Source: Triparma columacea (lineage: Eukaryota > Sar > Bolidophyceae > Parmales > Triparmaceae). From it: a stretch of 64,000 bases of DNA. Positions 10,095 through 31,012 of this stretch are shown here, in pieces; positions within the stretch are counted from its first letter, which is position 1; each line of letters starts with the position of its first letter. The translations under genes and the position numbers were made by a program. The stretch is taken from contig BRYA01000173.1 of the NCBI GenBank assembly GCA_030267965.1, positions 1-64,000 on the forward strand, in the 5' to 3' direction. Under the pieces are notes generated by a model. The model was not told the origin of the DNA, made no database searches, and worked only from the letters and a program-made list of their open reading frames with translations.

Positions 10095-13000
10095 TCAGCG
10101 TCCCCTTCCACCCCTCCCCCCTCCCACCCCTCTCGCCCCGCCTCCTCTTGGGGCAATTGGAACCTTTACGCCCATAAAGTCTTTGAGGTCCTGGTCGCAA
10201 AGGACGCACATTGGGAGGTGCTGCTCAGCCATCATTTGGGGGGGAACACTTCCCTGTTTCCAGACAAATTTGAGCTTCCTGGCAATTCCTGCGACCCCCC
10301 CCTCTCCGCAATTGCACGTGTATTGCTCTTCACAAACTTCGATCTTGGTGGCCGACTTTGGCATCCACATGGAGAATGCGTTTTCGTTCCCTGGGACGTT
10401 GCAGGTGTTGCATGAGAGGAGGTACCCACTGCTGAAATTTGGCTTCTTGAGTCTAATCAAGCCCTCGGGGCAACGCGGGCACTTGAAGACTGAGGAGGGA
10501 GGGGGGGCGAGGTTGACAGGTGAGGAGAAAGGGCGTTGTGGGCGAGGTTGGCGTGGCGTCTTGGACAAGGGACTCGGGACTCACCAGTAACACTGCTTTC
10601 CACACGGTTGTTCATACAGTTCGGGCATATCTTCTTATCCCTCCCCTCGTACCCGTCTCCCTGCTTTTGAATTACGACCTGCATGTCGCATTCTGGGCAC
10701 GCCTCCTCGGCAGGTTCAAACTTCCCAGTGTTAGGCAGGGAAAAGGATTCCTTACAAGGGTCGCAGTAAAGAACCTTCTGCCCGCTTCGCCCTCCCGCCC
10801 TCCCACCGTTTCCGTTTTGGACAGGTAGCTCCTTCAGGTCCATGCTGCGACGAGCGAAAAGACAAGCGAAGCAAGTCGTGGAAAGGAGTGTCTTAGTGGA
10901 TAGGAGTGGATGTCATTGAAAGGTGCCTTGGGCGATGTGTCGTTACGTTGCTGCCCGTCTCACCTCCTCCCGCACTTGCACTCAGAGAATGCCCTCTTTA
11001 CCAAGACTGCTTGGTCAACGACTGAGCTGAAGTGCCTTGCAAAAGCAGCGTCGAGTTTGTTCACTTCTCCTTCGACCTTGATGAAACATTCCTTCATCTC
11101 TCTGAGGACATCAGCGATGACATTGGTCTTTGTCAGGTTTCCGCTGAGACGAGCGAAGCAATAGAAAAAATGGGAATGTTGTCGGTTAGATGTTTTGGCA
11201 ATTTCGACGTTCTTGGTTGATTCTCACCTTGCAATCTGGTTGCATTGCCTTTCCATCTTGGCCCTCAAGTGGGGCTTGTTGAGTTGGTAGCCCATGCTGT
11301 TGTACCCCTCGACAAGGGCGATTCCTAGCTTAGTAGGCTTGAAGTGCTGCCCCTCCTTGACCACATACTCGCGGTCTTGAATGGTCTTGATGTGAGAGGC
11401 AATCGTGGCGTCTGTTCCTATTTTGTTCTTGTCCATCTGCGACGAGCGTTGGTGAGTTTGTTGAGTTCAAATTGTCGTGTTATTAGCTCTTACACGAATT
11501 GATAATAACAACATTAAAAAAATGATAATAATAGTAAACTCACCTCGCTGATCAATTCGACCTCGCTCATAAAGCTGGGGGGTGCTGTCGAGCCGCTTTC
11601 AAAAATCAATGAGGCGGGCTCAAACTCCGTTCCTGTTCCCATATTCGGGAGAATTCCCTGGCCGGCAGACCAGCGCTCGTAGGGTTTGTAAATTTCCAAC
11701 CAATTGTACTCGGTGACCATGAGCCCTTTGGCAGTGAACTACGTAAGGGGGGGGGAGGGGCGACGATCGAAGGGTTTAACATTTAGTTGATTAAAGCCCG
11801 CCAACATCGTGGCTTCGCTCTTCCTTGCCTCGCTCACCTCTTCAGTTCCCATCTTGACGCTCAGCACGGTTTGTTGCCCCTTCGCGTCCATTGAGCAGCA
11901 GGCAAGAAAGTGCTTAGTAACGAGCTCGTAAACTTGCCTCTGGGCGACATCCGGAAGCTCCGCAGGATCCACGGATTTCACGGGGATGATGGGAGGGTGC
12001 GCGTTGTCGTCATTCCTGCCGTTCCTAGGTTGTTGGAACTTTCCGTTGTCCAGCAAGGTCCGCGCGTACCCACCCCAGAGGTTGTTGTTCCTGAAGACTT
12101 CCACTGCGCCTCTAACGTCAAACTCTGGCTTGAATATCTCAGTCTCAGTTCTTGGGTACGAGATGTAACCAGCTTGGTAAAGCTGCGACGAACGAAACGG
12201 GGGGGGAGCGAAGCGACGAACGAGGGAGTGCGTTGGCTTTTTGAATTATGTGACGAAGCCCTCGGCCTAGCATTATACTTTAAGAATTATCGTGTTCTTG
12301 TCGCTCTTTGTCAGTTCTCACCTTCTCCGCCGCATCCATGGTAACCTCTGAGGCAAGGCGGTGATATTTGGAAGCCCTCTTCTGAAGCTCCACGGTTGCT
12401 AGAGGCGTTGGACGCCATTTGTTTTGGTTCCTCCCATCTGTGCCCAAAACCCTCGCCTTTCGAGCTTGTAGCGTCGACCTGTACAGGGCGAGAGCGCAGA
12501 CGTGATCGAAGAGTCGGTTGCGCTTCCACTGAAAGCTGATTTCTCGATTCGGGGAATCAGGGTCCTGCGATAAGCGAGCGAACAGGGCGAAGCGAACGAC
12601 AAAAGAGGGTAAATTCGTGTGGTGGCATTCGCGGGGGCGGATGCGACGAGTCTGTGTCCCATTACATCCCCGATTGTGCAAACCTTCCGCGACTCGCTTC
12701 ACTTGCCGCGCGTCGTCCCACTCCTTGTCTCATCTCACCTTCATTCCGAACTTTATCGTGAAAAATTGCTCAGGGATGAACGTCTCTATGCGAGCCCAAC
12801 GTTCAACGACGAAACCTAGGGTTGGGAATTGGCACGGACCGTAGGAGATCACTGAGGGGAGCCCGTACTTTTTTTGGTACCTCTTCGTCTGAAACCTCGT
12901 GAAGGCCGCCCCGATCCTCAGGTCAATCTCCTGCCTCGCGTTGACTGCGTCCACCTGTTTCATATCTAGCCTCCCTAGGTTATTGAGCGCCCTCCTTATT

Positions 13001-17552: not shown

Positions 17553-19917
17553 ATGTCCCCTCGTCCCAACAGCCCTCGTCTTCCCCTGACCTATAACAGG
17601 GATTCTGCTAGGAGGGCACGAGCCGGTGTCCGAAAAAAGTACGAGACGAGGGCATTGTTTCGATCCGTGTCGTTTATCGCTCTGGTGTCCGTATACTTTG
17701 TCTATTCCTTTATCTCAACAGCTTCCACCCCCCCACCCTCGGCCGACCTTCCCTTTGCTGATGATGGTGGTGCTCGTCTCCTGACCTCGCCAACGGGGAA
17801 TGCCACGGAGAATGCCACCTCTACCGCCTCGTGCGTCGTGGCTGATCCCCCCGTCCTTCTCGTCGCTTACATTGGCGGTGTAATCTACATGTTCCTTGCT
17901 CTCGCCATTGTCTGTGACGAGTTCTTTGTCCCTGCTCTGGAGGAGATGGCAAATGAGGACCACATGAATCTTTCCATGGATGTTGCTGGGGCTACGCTCA
18001 TGGCTGCGGGTGGCTCCGCCCCGGAACTCTTCACTAGTATGATTGGAACCTTCAAGGAGAGTGATGTTGGGTTCGGTACAATTGTTGGTTCCGCCGTCTT
18101 CAACGTGCTCTTCGTTATCGGCATGTGCGCCATGTTCAGTAAGGTGAGAATGGGGTAGATGAGGGGAGCAACGCTTGTATAAGTGGCCTCCTTCCCTCCT
18201 TCCTTCGCTCATCGCTTCGTTTTTCACTCCCTAACGCAACCCTTTCCGCGGCTTGATTCGCTCGCACGCTCGCTGCCTCACAGGAAATTCTCACTCTCAC
18301 GTGGTGGCCTCTTTTCAGGGACTGCTCGTACTACATTGTCGGTCTCCTGACCCTTTTCATCTTTTTCTCCCAGTGGACGCCTGGGGAGATTCACATTGTC
18401 GAGGCCGTCATCCTCTTCTGTATGTACTTCGGGTACGTCATCTTGATGGCCTACAACCAGGACCTGTACAAGTTCCTCATGCACAAGGCCGGGAAGAAGC
18501 TCCCTGAGGAAGAGGAAAAGCCTGCAATCGGTGCCAACGTTAGTTTCGTCAAGCCTTCAACCTTTCGCGCTGGAATTTTGAAGCTACTCATGAAGGATGG
18601 CTCCATAGCCGACACTGCCGGTGTTGGCATCGTCTCCAAGCTCACCGGGAATGTTCAGGAGGTTTTCAACCAGATTGATGAGAGCGGGAATGGGCTGATT
18701 GACAGCAAGGAGCTTGGCAGGCTCTTTGAGATGCTGGATTGCGATGTCAGTGAAGCAGAGCTCGGGTCCGCCATGAAGGAACTGGACGAGAACGGCGACG
18801 GAGTCATCGACTTCGCGGAATTCACGAAGTGGTACATCAAATCTGAGAGCAGGTGAGAGAGTGGGACAGACAAATATCAAGATTGGCCACGACGACAGTT
18901 TTGTGCTTTGGGAGCTTCGCGAGACACCTCGTGTGATGTCTGCCTTCCTAAATTTTGCCCTAACAACCCCTCTCACGACACTTCACTACCCACGCTCGTC
19001 TTTGCAGGATCAAGGCTCAGACTCATACAGCGTTCAACAAGGTCGACGTGAACAGCACTGGGTTCATTGAAAAGAATGAACTGAAGAGGCTCCTTCTCTC
19101 CTTGGGCGACAAACCCACTGACGTTGATATCGAGGCGGCCCTCAAGGAGATGTACCAGAGCGGCAAGCCCGACCAGATCACCTTCGATGAGTTTGAGGCT
19201 TGGTACGAGCAGAGTATGTTCTGGACTGACCACGTCAAGGAGGCTGAGGAGGCCGGGGAGGTCGCCGAAGGCGTTTGGTCTCCTTACCCTAAGGGTGCTG
19301 GCGTGCTTGAGAAAATTCAGTGGCTCCTCTTTGTTCCGCTTCTTGGCTCCCTCTGCCTAACCGTGCCTGACGTCAGGCAGCCGGGGAAGCAGAAGTGGTG
19401 CTACTATGCCTTCTTCGCCTCCATCTGCTGGATCGGCGTTTACTCCTTTTTCATGGTATCGTGGGCGGAGGTCATAGGAAACACTCTCACCATCCCCACC
19501 GTTGTCATGGGCGTCACCTTCTTGGCCGCGGGGACCTCAGTCCCCGACCTGCTCTCCTCCGTGATTGTGGCGAGGATGGGTGAGGGCGACATGGCAGTTA
19601 GCAGCTCTATCGGGTCCAACATCTTCGACATCCTCGTTGGGCTACCATTCCCTTGGCTCGTCTACATGGTCTATCTTCACACCGGGGACTACCAGTTCGA
19701 AGACGACGGGACTGTGAGGCGCTACGTTAAGGTCGGCGCCGAAGGAATCGAGATCGACATCCTTATCCTCCTCCTCATGCTCTCCGCCATTGTGTGTATT
19801 ATACACTTGAGCGGGTGGAAAATGACCAAGACATTAGGCCTCAGCATGTTCTTCTTGTACTTTGGTTTCGTCTTTCAGAGCGTCTTCCGCAAACTCCCCT
19901 TCGAAGACGAGTGCTGA
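17553..19917 (+). CDS. K+-dependent Na+/Ca2+ exchanger (NCKX type) with EF-hands in the central loop
   Basis: Exons: 17553-18143, 18284-18852, 19008-19917; 2070 nt, 689 aa. The alpha-1 repeat (about 145-185) reads [17 protein letters not shown] and [14 protein letters not shown]. The alpha-2 repeat near the C-terminus reads [17 protein letters not shown] and [15 protein letters not shown]. These define the SLC24/NCKX cation exchanger fold. The cytosolic loop between the halves holds three clear EF-hand loops: [12 protein letters not shown] (about 329), [12 protein letters not shown] (about 365) and [12 protein letters not shown] (about 400); a fourth, degenerate, is around [11 protein letters not shown]. 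So Ca2+ export is probably regulated directly by cytosolic Ca2+. Animal NCKX proteins lack these EF-hands. An N-terminal hydrophobic segment (about 37-57) may be a signal anchor. Intron 1 carries repeated TTCGCTC motifs. Confidence 0.9.
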
Positions 19918-25332: not shown

Positions 25333-28300
25333 ATGTCTATCAATCACCTCTCCCTCCCCCTCCTTACCCCCGTATCGATAGCTCTCCCAAACCAAACCTA
25401 CCTTCACGGTGTAATTGCCCACCTTGGTCCTGTAAAGTTCTCAGACAAGACAGACTGGGTAGGAGTCCGTCTCACCACCCCCTCACTGAACCAGGGGAAG
25501 AACAACGGCACCGTCAAGGGAACCTTCTACTTCGACGCCGGTGGTGAGACCAACGGTTGCTTCGTAAGGGCGCAGCAGATTGCAAAGAGGGAGGGCATGA
25601 CAAGGCTTGAGGAGCTCAAGCTCAAGAGGGAGATCGCGCAGTTCAAGGCGACCATCAACAAGGACCCGGGCGCGGCGGCGTCCGCCGCACCGGCCGCGGC
25701 GCAGGCAGCGACCAAGCCTGAAGCCACGCCGTCAGGCTCTCCGAAAAGAGCATCCTCACCAGTCCGTCCAAAGCCTCCCCCTCCCTCCTCCTCCTCCTCC
25801 TCCACCCCCGCCACCCCCTCTTCTTCCACCACCTCTACAGCCGCCAAGACGCGTTTGGAGATCCTCAAGGAGAAGCGCGCCGCCCTAGCAGAGAAACAAA
25901 CAAGGGGAAGGTCCAAGTCACCAACGCCGGCGCCAACGACAACAAGGACAACCAAGACCCCACCAGCACCCCCACCTGCACATGCACCAGCACCAGCACC
26001 CTCACCCGCACCTGCTCCCGCCCCTACCCCCGCACCTGCTTCCAACCCCGCCCCCGCTTCCACCCCCGCCCCCCCGAACCCCGCCCCCTCCGACCCCGAC
26101 CTCCAAGCCAAGTACGCCTCCCTCCTCGCGCTGCACACTTCCACCCAGGCCTCTCTCTCTTCCCTCCAGGAGTCCGCCTCGTCCCAAAGGTCCCAGATAG
26201 CCTCGTTAAACTCCACCATATCCGCCCTCCGTTCCTCCCCCCCCCCCCCCCCCTCACCCTCCCCTGAGGTCTCCTCCGAGCTGTCCAGCGCGCTCGAAAA
26301 GATAGAATCACTAGAGAAGACAATCTCCACCATGAAGGACCTTCGAATCAAGCACACTACAAACGAGGCAAAGCACGCGGCATCCTTAAACGCGGAGCTA
26401 ACAACGCTCAAAAGACAACTGGAGGATAGCAACAAGGAGAAAGATACAGCAGAGGAAGGGATGGAAAAACTCGCCCTAGAACTAACTGAGGTTAAGGGGG
26501 AGAAGGAAGCACTTGAAGATAAAGTGGAGGAACTCAAACTAGACCTCGAGACTCTGGAACTCGAACTCGAAGAGGTTAAGGAGGGTTACCAGGACGCCTC
26601 TGGTGGGGGTGGGGAAGACGATGCTACCGACTCTAGTAAAGGACAAGCGGAACAACTGTTGAAGGTACAGAAGGAGAACGCTGACATGAGAGGAGCACTT
26701 AGGAAAGTCAGGGAGGAAATGAGGAAGTGGGAGAGGAGGAGGGAGGAGGAGATTGGGAGAATTGAGAAGGAGAGGGAGACGGAAAGGAAGGAATGGAAGA
26801 GGGAGGTGAGACGGCGGCTTTGAAGGAAGGAAGGAAAAGGAAGGGGGGGAGAAAATATATAAAATACAAAGGGGACATTCACTCACGCCCACACCCCCCC
26901 CCTCCCCACCCACCCACGCGCACACAAACGAAGATCTCGGAGATGCACGCGCAGGTAGACGGTCGATCTGCCTCTGACGCCATGTTCGAGGGTCTTACAA
27001 ACAGGAACCTCACCCTCGAGGATACAATTGAAACCCTTACCCTCGCTCAGAGGGAGCTGGAGGAGAGGGTCGAGGTTGGGGAGGAGATGGAGGAGGTTAT
27101 GGGGGAAGAGATTAAGGTTCTTAAGAAAGAGATTGAGGGGTGGGAGACTAAGGCTAGCAACCTCGAGGAGGCCGTTAGGAGGCAGAGGGGTAGGGAGTTG
27201 GAGGGTGAGAAGGTCGTCGGGAAGTACAAGGAGCTAGTGAGGAAGTTGAGGGAGGATTTGGGAAGGATGGAGGATGAGAGGAGGGGGGAGGAGGGGGGGG
27301 AGGTTAGGAGGATTGACAGGGAGAGGAAGGCGAGGGATGAGGTTAACAAGTGGAGGAAGAGGGAAATTGAGAGGGAAGGACTTGTCAAGGAGGTGAGGGA
27401 AACGAAACAAAGCAAGGGACGGGAAAGGAAAGAAAAGACAACGAAACGCCCCCCCCCCCCGTAAAAACGCTCTAATAAAACCACAAACCCCCTTTCTGTC
27501 GATACTCGTTTCGCTTCGTTCGCAGCTGTGGGAAGGCCGGATCGAAGCCGCTGGTATGAAGGTTGAGGGTGCCTCAAAGTTCTCGTGGGTCCCTCTTACC
27601 GTCGCCGCCATGGAGCACTCCGCTGTATCGGGGGACAAGGCACTGGCAAGGACGGCCGCCGCACTCGCATACGGACTCGCTAAGATCGAAGGAGAACTCG
27701 TACGGGAGGGGGGGGAAGAAGACGGAGAGGTGAGGGGGGGGGGGATGGGAAAGTTTGAGAGGGACGTGGAGCTCGCGGGGGCGCTGGTCGACGCGCACGC
27801 GGAGTGCACGAGGACCATCGTGGCGGTGGGAATGGGGATGGGGGGGGGGGAGGATTCGATGGAGGTATCCGCGGCATCGGCTCACGCGTTCGGGGAGGTT
27901 TATAGACTGGCAATTTCGGCTGTGGACAAGGTCGGGGAGGGGGAGAGCACGGCAAAGGGGGAGCTGAAACTACTGAAGGAGGCGGTGAAACACGCGAGGG
28001 AGGCAATCAACGGGGACAAGGACAGCAACCCAATGGTGGAGGACGAATGGAACCCGGAGGGATGGAAACAGGTCAGACAGGCAACGAAGGCGGATTGGCT
28101 CTGCAAGGCGTTAGAGGGAAACTTCGAGGGCACGCCAGAGATCAAGAAGCTAAGGGCCGAATCCAGCAGGCTCGTCGAGGCGCTGTCGCAGACCGCGATG
28201 TTCTCAGCTGGAGAAGGAGACGAACTCGAGGATGCATGCAACGGACTCATCCAAGCAATCACGTCAAGGTGAGAATAGACGGCTAAGTGAAAAGACCCAC

Positions 28301-29660
28301 CAAGGGGAACGATAGCGATGCTACACTCTGAACCCTGAACTCAAACTTCTTCGCCCGTCGCGCTCGTCGCGCTTTGCCTCCTTGCAGCACCGTCGCCGAG
28401 GCTGGGACTGAAATCGAAAGCCTAATGACCGCGCTTTCCAAGTGCCTCGCCTCCCTCCCCAAATCTCCCCCCCCCGCCGAAGCGCACCCTCTGCTACCTT
28501 CCAACCTCGACGCCTTCGCATCCTGCGTCAAGTACGTCGACTCATTGTCCAACGGAGGCAACGCGTGGGCTCGAAGGAGGGAGAAGATAAAGGCGAGGAT
28601 CCTCGAGGGCGATGAGTGCAGGTCCAAGGTCGCCTCGGTCGCCGTAGAGCTCTCCGAAACCCAAAAGGCGCTCAAGGGGAAGGAAAAGGAAGCCGCGCGG
28701 CTGGGGAAGAAGATCTCGCAGCTCGAGGGGCTCCTGAGCGAGGACAAAGGGAGCAAGGTGGAGGAGGGGGGGGAGGGGGAGACGACGGAGAAACTTAGGA
28801 AGGAGATCGCCATGCTCACAGAGGCCATGGATGTCCTGCACACACAGGTGGACGAGTACGAGACCGAGATCAGGACAATGAAGGGGGGGAGGGGAAGGTG
28901 AGAACGGGGCCGGAGACCTCATCGGGACGAGCTGTAACCCTAACAGTGTCATAAACCACTAACGTAACCCCCTTCCCCTTTGCCTCCGCCGCACTCGCTT
29001 TGCTTGCCCCCCGCCAGGGATAAGAGCCCCAAGAAGGGCAAGGGCGGCTCGGCCGCAGCCGACGGGGACAGGGACGCCATCGCCCGGGCCGCGGATGCAA
29101 CCCGACCCGTCCTCAGGGCCGCCTTAACCGATGCTAGGGCGTGGAGGAGCAGGGCCACCAAGGCCATGGTGAAGGAGCTAAAGCCCCTGGGGAGGAGGGG
29201 GAGGACCACGGGGACGACGGCGGCGCAACCCCAGGGGGGGGACATGCTGGAGGTTAGGAGGGCGGAGGGAGAGGGGGGGAGGAACTTGAGGGAGATGCTG
29301 GTGAAGGCCTGCTGCGACGCGAGGATTGCCAAGGCTAAATGTAAGGTAATCGAGCTGGGCAAGGGGGGAAAGAGCGTGGCGGAGATGGTCAAGGATGCGG
29401 GGAAAGAGTGCAAGGAGGCGGAGCAGATGGTCGAGAAGGCGGTGGAGGAGTGCAAGTGGGCACTGAGGAAGGGGATCCGGTTCAAGCCGATGGAAGGGAA
29501 GAAGAAAGAAGGAGGGGGGGAGGGTGAGGTACTCAGGGCGAGGGTGAGAATTCAAAAGAAGGAAGCACCCAAATCAATTGTCACACGGAAGCATCTGCTT
29601 GGGGGAGAGCGAGACCTGGAAAAGTTGTTGGCTTGGACCCAGACGGCACTCATGGTGTAG
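25333..29660 (+). CDS. DCTN1: Dynactin subunit 1 (p150-Glued)
   Basis: Exons: 25333-26805, 26934-27392, 27526-28268, 28388-28897, 29018-29660; 3828 nt, 1275 aa, close to the usual p150 length. An N-terminal CAP-Gly domain (about 10-80; KTDWVGVRL and GKNNGTVKGTFYF) binds microtubule ends and EB proteins. A basic, Ser/Pro/Ala-rich linker follows (about 110-250), then coiled coil (about 250-640) containing TNRNLTLEDTIETL, the p150 coiled-coil signature. The C-terminal half fits the dynactin p150 domain. It links dynein to cargo and microtubules. Intron 3 (28269-28387) is nearly identical to the only intron of the convergent neighbour. The dynactin stop is only 51 bp from that gene's stop. Confidence 0.9.
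28269..28387 (+). repeat. Introner-like intron, copy A (dynactin intron 3)
   Basis: This is a 119-nt intron from GTGAG to TTGCAG. It matches the reverse complement of 30630-30739 over its whole length, with about 6 substitutions in 110 aligned bases plus one 9-nt indel, which is a tandem duplication of a gtcgcgct-type unit. Flanking exons are unrelated, so the match starts and ends at the splice sites. Confidence 0.9.
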
Positions 29661-29711
29661 GGGTTTCAAAATAGAGAACAACTTTATTGAAACCTACTTT
29701 GTCCTATTTTA

Positions 29712-31012
29712 TCAAATTATTGATTGCGACCTCTTGAAGCGGCCGTACTTGCTTTTGCTTTTCTCCCCCAATTCCTCATCTTTAGCGTGTTCGATGGCGT
29801 GCCCCACGGCGCCCCAGCTCATGCCGGCCTTGGCGACGCCCCCGCTCCAGTCGTACTCCGCCATCATCGTGATAACGGGGTGGGCGTGGCCGTCATCGGC
29901 CCCCGAAGCTTCGGCCGACTGGGAGATGGATGAGAGAATGATGTTGTGAACCTCGTCGCGCTTCTTGCCCACCAACTCCAAGTCTAAGCCGTGAATCTTT
30001 TGCTCCCCCTCCGTGCCGGGCATGGAACTTCGAGGCTGCTTTGGCTTCGCAGCCTTGTTGTCCGATTCCCTCTCCTCCGTCTTCTCGTCGTCGCTCAGCA
30101 TGTCTGACGAGGCTTTCTTGCTGGCGTAATTATGAGCCCTAATCATGGCTTTCCTAGCCGAGGCCCAGTTGTAGATATCTGAGTGGCCCATCCCAGCAAT
30201 TGTCGACCGACTAGAGTTGTCCACGTTGACCCCGTCAGAGGACAGCGGAAGAGGCAGTTCCAGCTTCTTAACGCACTTCCATTCTGTGTGAAGCCCCTCC
30301 GTTTTCCACAGCTGGAGGTTTCCAAAGTGGAACTTCTTACCTATCACGTCAATGGCGAGATCAGCCATGGCCTTCCCCTTAGTATCAACGTCCAAGTCTC
30401 CGTAGATTAGCGACAGGTGCGGCATGTATTCTGAATCATAGCCGCACCCATTTCCATCCCTTTCAAATACTTCGCAGGCAACCTTGTTGAGGCCAGTGAT
30501 ACTCTTTGTGAGAACAGGATGCGCGTAAACGCACTGAAAGAAGAGATCGCGGGCGCCGAGGCCGTGGAGCGCGAGGTGAGGGGTAAAAATGTCATCAAAA
30601 TTGTGGGCAAGGCGCTTCTCCAACATATCCTGCAAGGAGGCAAAGCGCGACGGGCGAAGAATTTTGAGTTAAGGGTTCAGCGTGTAGCATCGCAATCGTT
30701 CCCCTTAGTGGGTCTTTTCACTTTGCCGTCTATTCTCACCATTTTGTCAAACAACCATTGTTCGCTCCTGTCCGTCATCCCGGCAAGCACCGAGAGGTGG
30801 GGAAGGAAAGCGTCCGTCCCGAGCTCCGCGGCAGTATGGGATATCACAGATTTCATGTACTCCAGATCTGTCCCAGCCGAAGGCAGAAGCCAAAGGGAGT
30901 ACCCATGGAATACAGGGGATGAGTACAACGAGGCTCCCTCCTCGACATGCTGAGCGGCATGAGCCGGGAGAGTCACGGGGTTGATAAGCACCGTGTTACG
31001 TCGAGTCGCCAT
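29712..31012 (-). CDS. 2H-family phosphoesterase (plant-type cyclic phosphodiesterase-like) with C-terminal extension
   Basis: There are two exons, 30740-31012 and 29712-30629 (1191 nt, 396 aa). Two HxS motifs, LPHLSVLAG (exon 1) and MPHLSLIYG (exon 2), sit the right distance apart for a 2H phosphoesterase like plant CPDase, which opens ADP-ribose 1'',2''-cyclic phosphate and 2',3'-cyclic nucleotides. The N-terminal part (YSLWLLPS) fits the fold. The last ~200 aa are a polar, charged extension with no domain I recognise (YNWASARKAMIRAHNYASKK, then a Lys/Glu-rich stretch). It may work after tRNA splicing or RNA repair (inference). Its single intron is the second copy of the introner pair. Confidence 0.78.
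30630..30739 (-). repeat. Introner-like intron, copy B (phosphodiesterase intron)
   Basis: This is a 110-nt intron read on the minus strand, near-identical to dynactin intron 3 from donor to acceptor. Because the host genes are convergent, the two copies form an inverted repeat about 2.2 kb apart on the chromosome. Confidence 0.9.

Follow-up and report, generated by a model that had tools for sequence, protein, structure and literature searches.

Two near-identical introns in adjacent convergent genes of Triparma columacea and a genome-wide class of introns with common ends

Two neighbouring, convergent genes of Triparma columacea carry introns, here called A and B, that are copies of a single sequence, end precisely at the splice sites and both lie in the sense orientation of their host genes (table 1). 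We think it probable that this pair arose when one intron was copied, in an introner-like and splice-precise manner, into the gene next to it. On this explanation, one of the two introns would have been copied from GT to AG, in sense, into an uninterrupted exon of the adjacent convergent gene, and the new copy would have been spliceable at once because it came with a donor, an acceptor and a probable branch site of its own. A and B would themselves be members of an introner-like class of degenerate introns with common ends. The stretch of DNA analysed, referred to as the window, covers 64 kb of contig C172 (72,325 bases) in an assembly of 37.85 Mb and 789 contigs. Introns were predicted with our own gene finder, run without RNA, which gave 75 in the window.

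Table 1. Positions and properties of the introns, host genes and model matches in the window.
Feature	Position	Strand	Details
Host gene of intron A: CAP-Gly domain protein	25333..29660	+	four predicted introns; rough gene model
Intron A	28269..28387	+	119 nt; GTGAG...TTGCAG; phase 2; third of four predicted introns of the CAP-Gly gene
9-nt tandem duplication	28356..28373	+	CGTCGCGCT twice in A, single in B; from the alignment
Match of 3′ model R1 in intron A	28327..28370	+	12.1 bits; E = 0.0081; sixth match of the window
Host gene of intron B: cyclic phosphodiesterase-like (CPDase), PF07823	29712..31012	-	396 aa spliced
Intron B	30739-30630	-	110 nt; GTGAG...TTGCAG; phase 0; sole predicted CPDase intron
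Weak match of 3′ model R1 in intron B	30647..30680	-	4.8 bits; E = 1.6; alone not significant
Class intron, best 3′ model match in the window	10845..10963	-	26 bits; full-length partner not found
Class intron, second-best 3′ model match in the window	18144..18283	+	23.6 bits; full-length partner not found

Introns A and B are copies of a single sequence

The original prediction had described two near-identical introns with about six mismatches in 110 bases and a 9-nt duplication, with exon flanks that do not match and with the copies inverted about 2.2 kb apart, and direct measurement bears this description out. In a global alignment, 104 of the 110 ungapped columns are identical, leaving six mismatches and one 9-nt gap, which is due to the exact tandem duplication of CGTCGCGCT in A (28356-28364 and 28365-28373). 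When the window was searched by BLAST with a 220-nt query, the match between A and B had an E-value of 1e-39 and the next match one of 0.13. The similarity starts at the last G of the exon (AAG/GTGAG for A, ATG/GTGAG for B) and ends exactly at TTGCAG, while the flanking 30 nt of exon agree at just 8 positions on the 5′ side and 3 on the 3′ side. The host genes are convergent, so placed that the copies are inverted and 2,242 nt apart (28388-30629).

The label ‘dynactin’ for the host of A is based on a CAP-Gly domain (E = 5.9e-13); in our judgement the protein is dynactin p150-like, the rest of it having the appearance of coiled coil. The spliced CPDase product matches PF07823 (E = 5.3e-10) and aligns along its full length with the proteins of relatives. 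Among the named relatives are Triparma strigata (60%), a Bolidomonas-type transcriptome (68%), Tetraparma gracilis (42%) and Parmales sp. ‘scaly parma’ (38%), so that by protein similarity the genome has the look of a parmalean one. If the CPDase gene is left unspliced, its frame is broken within intron B. Neither intron has a length divisible by three and both shift the reading frame. Judged by these reading frames, A and B are probably both spliced.

Further genome copies of the pair, for which the original prediction had suggested a search, did not turn up. Intron A as a DNA query against the whole assembly found two places, A and B, in a type of search that can miss copies; a 4.4-kb query spanning both introns and their surroundings returned, beyond itself, just the mutual A/B match across the genome; and a 29-position internal pattern, allowing up to three mismatches, had two matches genome-wide and none in controls. 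A high-copy introner of the exact A/B sequence is ruled out by these whole-genome searches, and with just two copies found A and B do not form a proliferating family. For the literal sequence, the absence of other copies is an outcome that the original prediction had itself listed as counting against it. A 21-nt pattern from the start of A/B, again with up to three mismatches, matched 12 places as against one in the control. By eye, none of the ten matches outside A and B goes on like them, and these loci gave no match to A or B in a self-comparison; one of them, L008, has the 3′ end of the class described below. The self-comparison, which covered approximately 293 kb and looked for further intron pairs, was dominated by repeats at contig starts. 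Many of the stretches concerned (L016-L034, the first 10 kb of 19 contigs) have kilobase-scale repeats in common, at about 65-90% identity, a pattern that subtelomeres, or contigs broken off at repeats, might be expected to show.

The sites of A and B in relatives

The sites of the two introns in relatives were judged at the protein level from database ORFs, with their genomic origin inferred. At site A, the ORF P0016 (54% identity, on a contig of 14,083 bases) is continuous, and P0015 (98% identical) ends in ...AITSR, which is what would be expected from reading into the donor of intron A. At site B, the scaly-parma-like ORF P0009 is continuous; it is apparently unspliced genomic DNA, because downstream it runs from ...ISE into VSERSERAFWEK, a sequence missing from the annotated protein P0010. 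P0005 and P0008 are also continuous across site B, with a genomic origin less certain than that of P0009. P0001 (86% identical) is contiguous there too and is uninformative, since the DNA or RNA origin of its ORF is unlabelled. As a separate observation, VSERSERAFWEK in the C-terminal part of P0009 would fit an intron end motif like GAGCGAAGCGAG in that relative too.

Absence from related species had been proposed as a check on the prediction, and conserved ancient positions as grounds for abandoning it; in the relatives examined, both sites appear free of the intron. Since these ORFs are continuous at both sites, introns A and B are probably young and gained in this lineage. The same ORFs (P0016 for site A, P0009 for site B) argue against gene conversion having homogenised two older, unrelated introns. 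The closeness and inverted arrangement of A and B would suit such an event, but a conversion tract requires sequences that are already similar, and its two ends should not normally fall precisely on the splice junctions; we regard this explanation as highly improbable.

A genome-wide class of degenerate introns

The introns of the window are alike at their ends, and the likeness extends across the genome. A 15-mer from the 3′ end, CTTCGCTCGTCGCAG, occurs 78 times genome-wide compared with no occurrence of its reversed control. We examined 77 of the 78 places over 260 bases each and found a GTRAG donor 70-186 nt upstream in 68 of them; eight places, in addition to L103, had no such donor. Three places looked exonic (L070 and L096, both among the 68, and L103), and the 66 remaining are treated here as class introns. 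Their 5′ consensus is GTGAGAAtggacaa, and an identical consensus was obtained from the 57 loci with one possible donor. The initial choice of donor favoured some letters after GTRAG; the consensus was unchanged when that preference was removed. The sequence GTGAGAATGGACAAG occurred 35 times as against once for its control. Overall, the common ends of the class extend over roughly 15 nt at the 5′ side and roughly 50 nt at the 3′ side.

Profiles of both ends were built from the 66 class introns, with the window excluded, and scored against 500 shuffles. The score of intron A was reached by 7 of the 500 shuffles at the 5′ end and 6 at the 3′ end, that of intron B by 0 and 15, respectively. Among 48 window introns, picked by length and donor from the 75 predicted, 25 passed at the 3′ end (a pass being at most 25 of 500 shuffles), 11 at the 5′ end and nine at both. 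A second test used a 3′ model, R1, derived by sequence only from the last 60 nt of 51 loci, all on other contigs; of the 26 loci among the 77 that were omitted from it, three were the exonic ones and 23 were left unselected. Scanned across the window, R1 gave 22 matches at E ≤ 1, of which 20 fell in predicted introns (16 introns), which make up 19.5% of the window. Sixteen of these 20 were in sense; the four antisense matches all lay in the 5′ part of the intron. A and B are thus placed by their ends as diverged members of the class, B less clearly so by the R1 test. A joint search with several window introns as long queries returned only self-matches, in a format where short matches in long queries can escape. 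Most sampled members of the class are diverged and few have a recognisable sister copy; that no partner was found for the two window introns with the best 3′ model matches speaks against a simple picture.

Such sister copies do exist. L107 and L108 are identical at 101 of 111 columns (91%) over their full length, with unrelated flanks, and the L107 intron as a query found two places genome-wide, on contigs C643 and C655. L078 and L102 are 74% identical over their full length. These values can be read against the full set of 2,145 pairs formed by the 66 class introns and against controls with shuffled interiors (300 trials); the maximum among these controls was 64%. The median identity was 0.53 for real and 0.50 for shuffled pairs, and because these medians are so close, most class introns are alike at little beyond their ends. 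A piece of the L056 intron had 46 matches genome-wide, itself included and many of them partial.

Selection on extended splice signals could account for part of the likeness at the ends. A stronger form of this idea would take the whole genome-wide likeness as an unusual extended splice consensus and A/B as an isolated duplication. The likeness is indeed strongest at the ends, where splicing signals reside, and the medians given above fit; yet the 3′ model is 60 positions long, at 0.76 bits per position, the L107/L108 and L078/L102 pairs are alike along their whole length and above the shuffled maximum, and a single intron piece has dozens of matches. We consider the stronger form quite unlikely.

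Several loci showed repeated structures. Internally repeated modules were frequent in sixteen stretches, mostly of the L056 group. The introns L128, L133 and L123 have several tandem modules of about 18 nt (GCATCAGAGGAGCGCAAG) ahead of the common 3′ module. In L125 (C106:8760-9200), copies of an intron-like unit, GTAAGCAACAAGC...TCGTCGCAG, follow one another head to tail. In L135 (C105:47560-48010), a class-like element stands between direct repeats of about 28 nt (GATGCTACGAACTTGCTTGCTGTCGTTG); each of the three forward frames of that stretch contains stops. L007 and L014 contain long tandem repeats with the appearance of coding arrays, putatively of zinc fingers of the C2H2 type.

Mode of copying and known systems

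An intron pair of this kind could have been left by a classical DNA-transposon introner, MITE-like with terminal inverted repeats (TIRs) and a target-site duplication (TSD), that made a local hop. TSDs had been named as something to look for, and at the flanks of A (AAG/.../CAC) and B (ATG/.../GAT) no duplication of 3-9 bp is visible beyond the exon-junction G or GG. The complementarity between the ends of A was reached by 99 of 100 shuffles and that of B by 25 of 100, and the fold z values were 0.52 and −0.14; on these tests a TIR or hairpin in A/B is ruled out. Elsewhere in the class there are traces that would suit a transposon. Inverted ends are found in a few members, for example in L061 (GTGCGACGAGCGAAGCGAGTCGCGG...CGCTTCGCTCGTCGCAG) and in L060, which has a fold z of −2.16; a 5′ arm motif, GAGCGAAGCG, occurs with up to two mismatches in 15 of the 66 class introns compared with a shuffle maximum of seven; and the four antisense R1 matches in the window all lie in the 5′ part of introns. 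These traces do not extend far, however. L107 and L050, two of three other class introns folded, have no hairpin; the end-complementarity test at the 5% level was passed by just 8 of the 66 class introns and, in the window, by 1 of the 48 introns tested; GAGCGAAGCG is not enriched in window introns (4 of 48, with a shuffle mean of 2.6 and maximum of seven); and an antisense match at E ≤ 0.5 was seen in just 1 of 66 class loci. We regard the transposon as unlikely and favour whole-intron copying over it because of the precise ends, the sense orientation, the absence of TSD and TIR and the weak general results of the inverted-end tests.

A whole intron might also be copied locally at the DNA level, if a break were repaired using the neighbour's intron as template, by template switching or ectopic gap repair, and selection kept the splice-precise copies. 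The inverted arrangement at a distance of 2,242 nt speaks for such a route, as do the tandem and flanking duplications at the class-like elements L125 and L135, and simple arithmetic gives a random second site that near in 37.85 Mb a chance of about 1e-4. On the other hand, the pair was found through both copies lying in one window, and much of the weight of their closeness is thereby lost: within a single 64-kb window, a distance of 2.2 kb or less has a chance of about 7%, again by arithmetic. Ends that are exact at both splice sites are unexpected for repair tracts, and L107 and L108 lie on different contigs. Local repair seems to us rather unlikely as the explanation, though somewhat less so than the transposon.

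For the splice-precise, introner-like copying that we prefer, RNA-mediated intron transposition or an introner-like element carrying its splice sites is slightly ahead of copying by DNA repair. Compared by eye with the class consensus, the differences between A and B are mixed as to which copy is the source. A broader proposal, which we put forward tentatively and with more doubt than belief, is that ordinary introns in this genome are copied singly, from splice site to splice site, by a low-level and probably RNA-mediated transposition whose products are mostly pairs of two copies, A/B and L107/L108 among them, and which would have filled the genome with the degenerate class. The introner signature originally proposed is partly supported: the copied sequence, the splice-precise ends, the apparently intron-free sites in relatives and the existence of a related class speak for it, while no high-copy family, TIR or TSD was found for A and B.

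How introns are gained remains a matter of dispute, and to our knowledge clean recent gains with a known source are few. With exact ends, relatives that are apparently intron-free at both sites and many related introns in the same genome, A and B provide a testable system for intron gain and may show how new introns originate. In the literature covered, with supplements and most subscription journals lying outside it, no link between introners and Parmales, Triparma or Bolido- names was found.

A survey of introners (Gozashti et al. 2022, PMC9860276) set four introns as the lower limit for a family and reported that a family has from 5 to more than 2,000 copies in a genome; its main text contains no Bolid- or Triparma names. 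Like the introners described there, A and B are highly similar introns whose genes and positions are unrelated, and their sites are empty in relatives at the protein level, with the genomic origin of the ORFs inferred. They differ from those families in having two copies rather than at least four and in lacking TIR and TSD, although some of the surveyed families carry both splice sites and some are without TSD and TIR. Pairs of two copies fall below the four-intron threshold of that survey and so would have been missed by it.

Intron transposition by reverse splicing, as defined in PMC3443670, predicts a splice-precise copy in sense without target duplication, as seen in A and B, each bounded by its donor and acceptor; taken alone, it does not predict copies only 2.2 kb apart. 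The fungal introner-like elements treated in the same paper are co-linear with transcription, are not canonical transposons and, according to that paper, quickly degenerate into ordinary introns. The degenerate class of this alga, in a different lineage, fits that quick decay.
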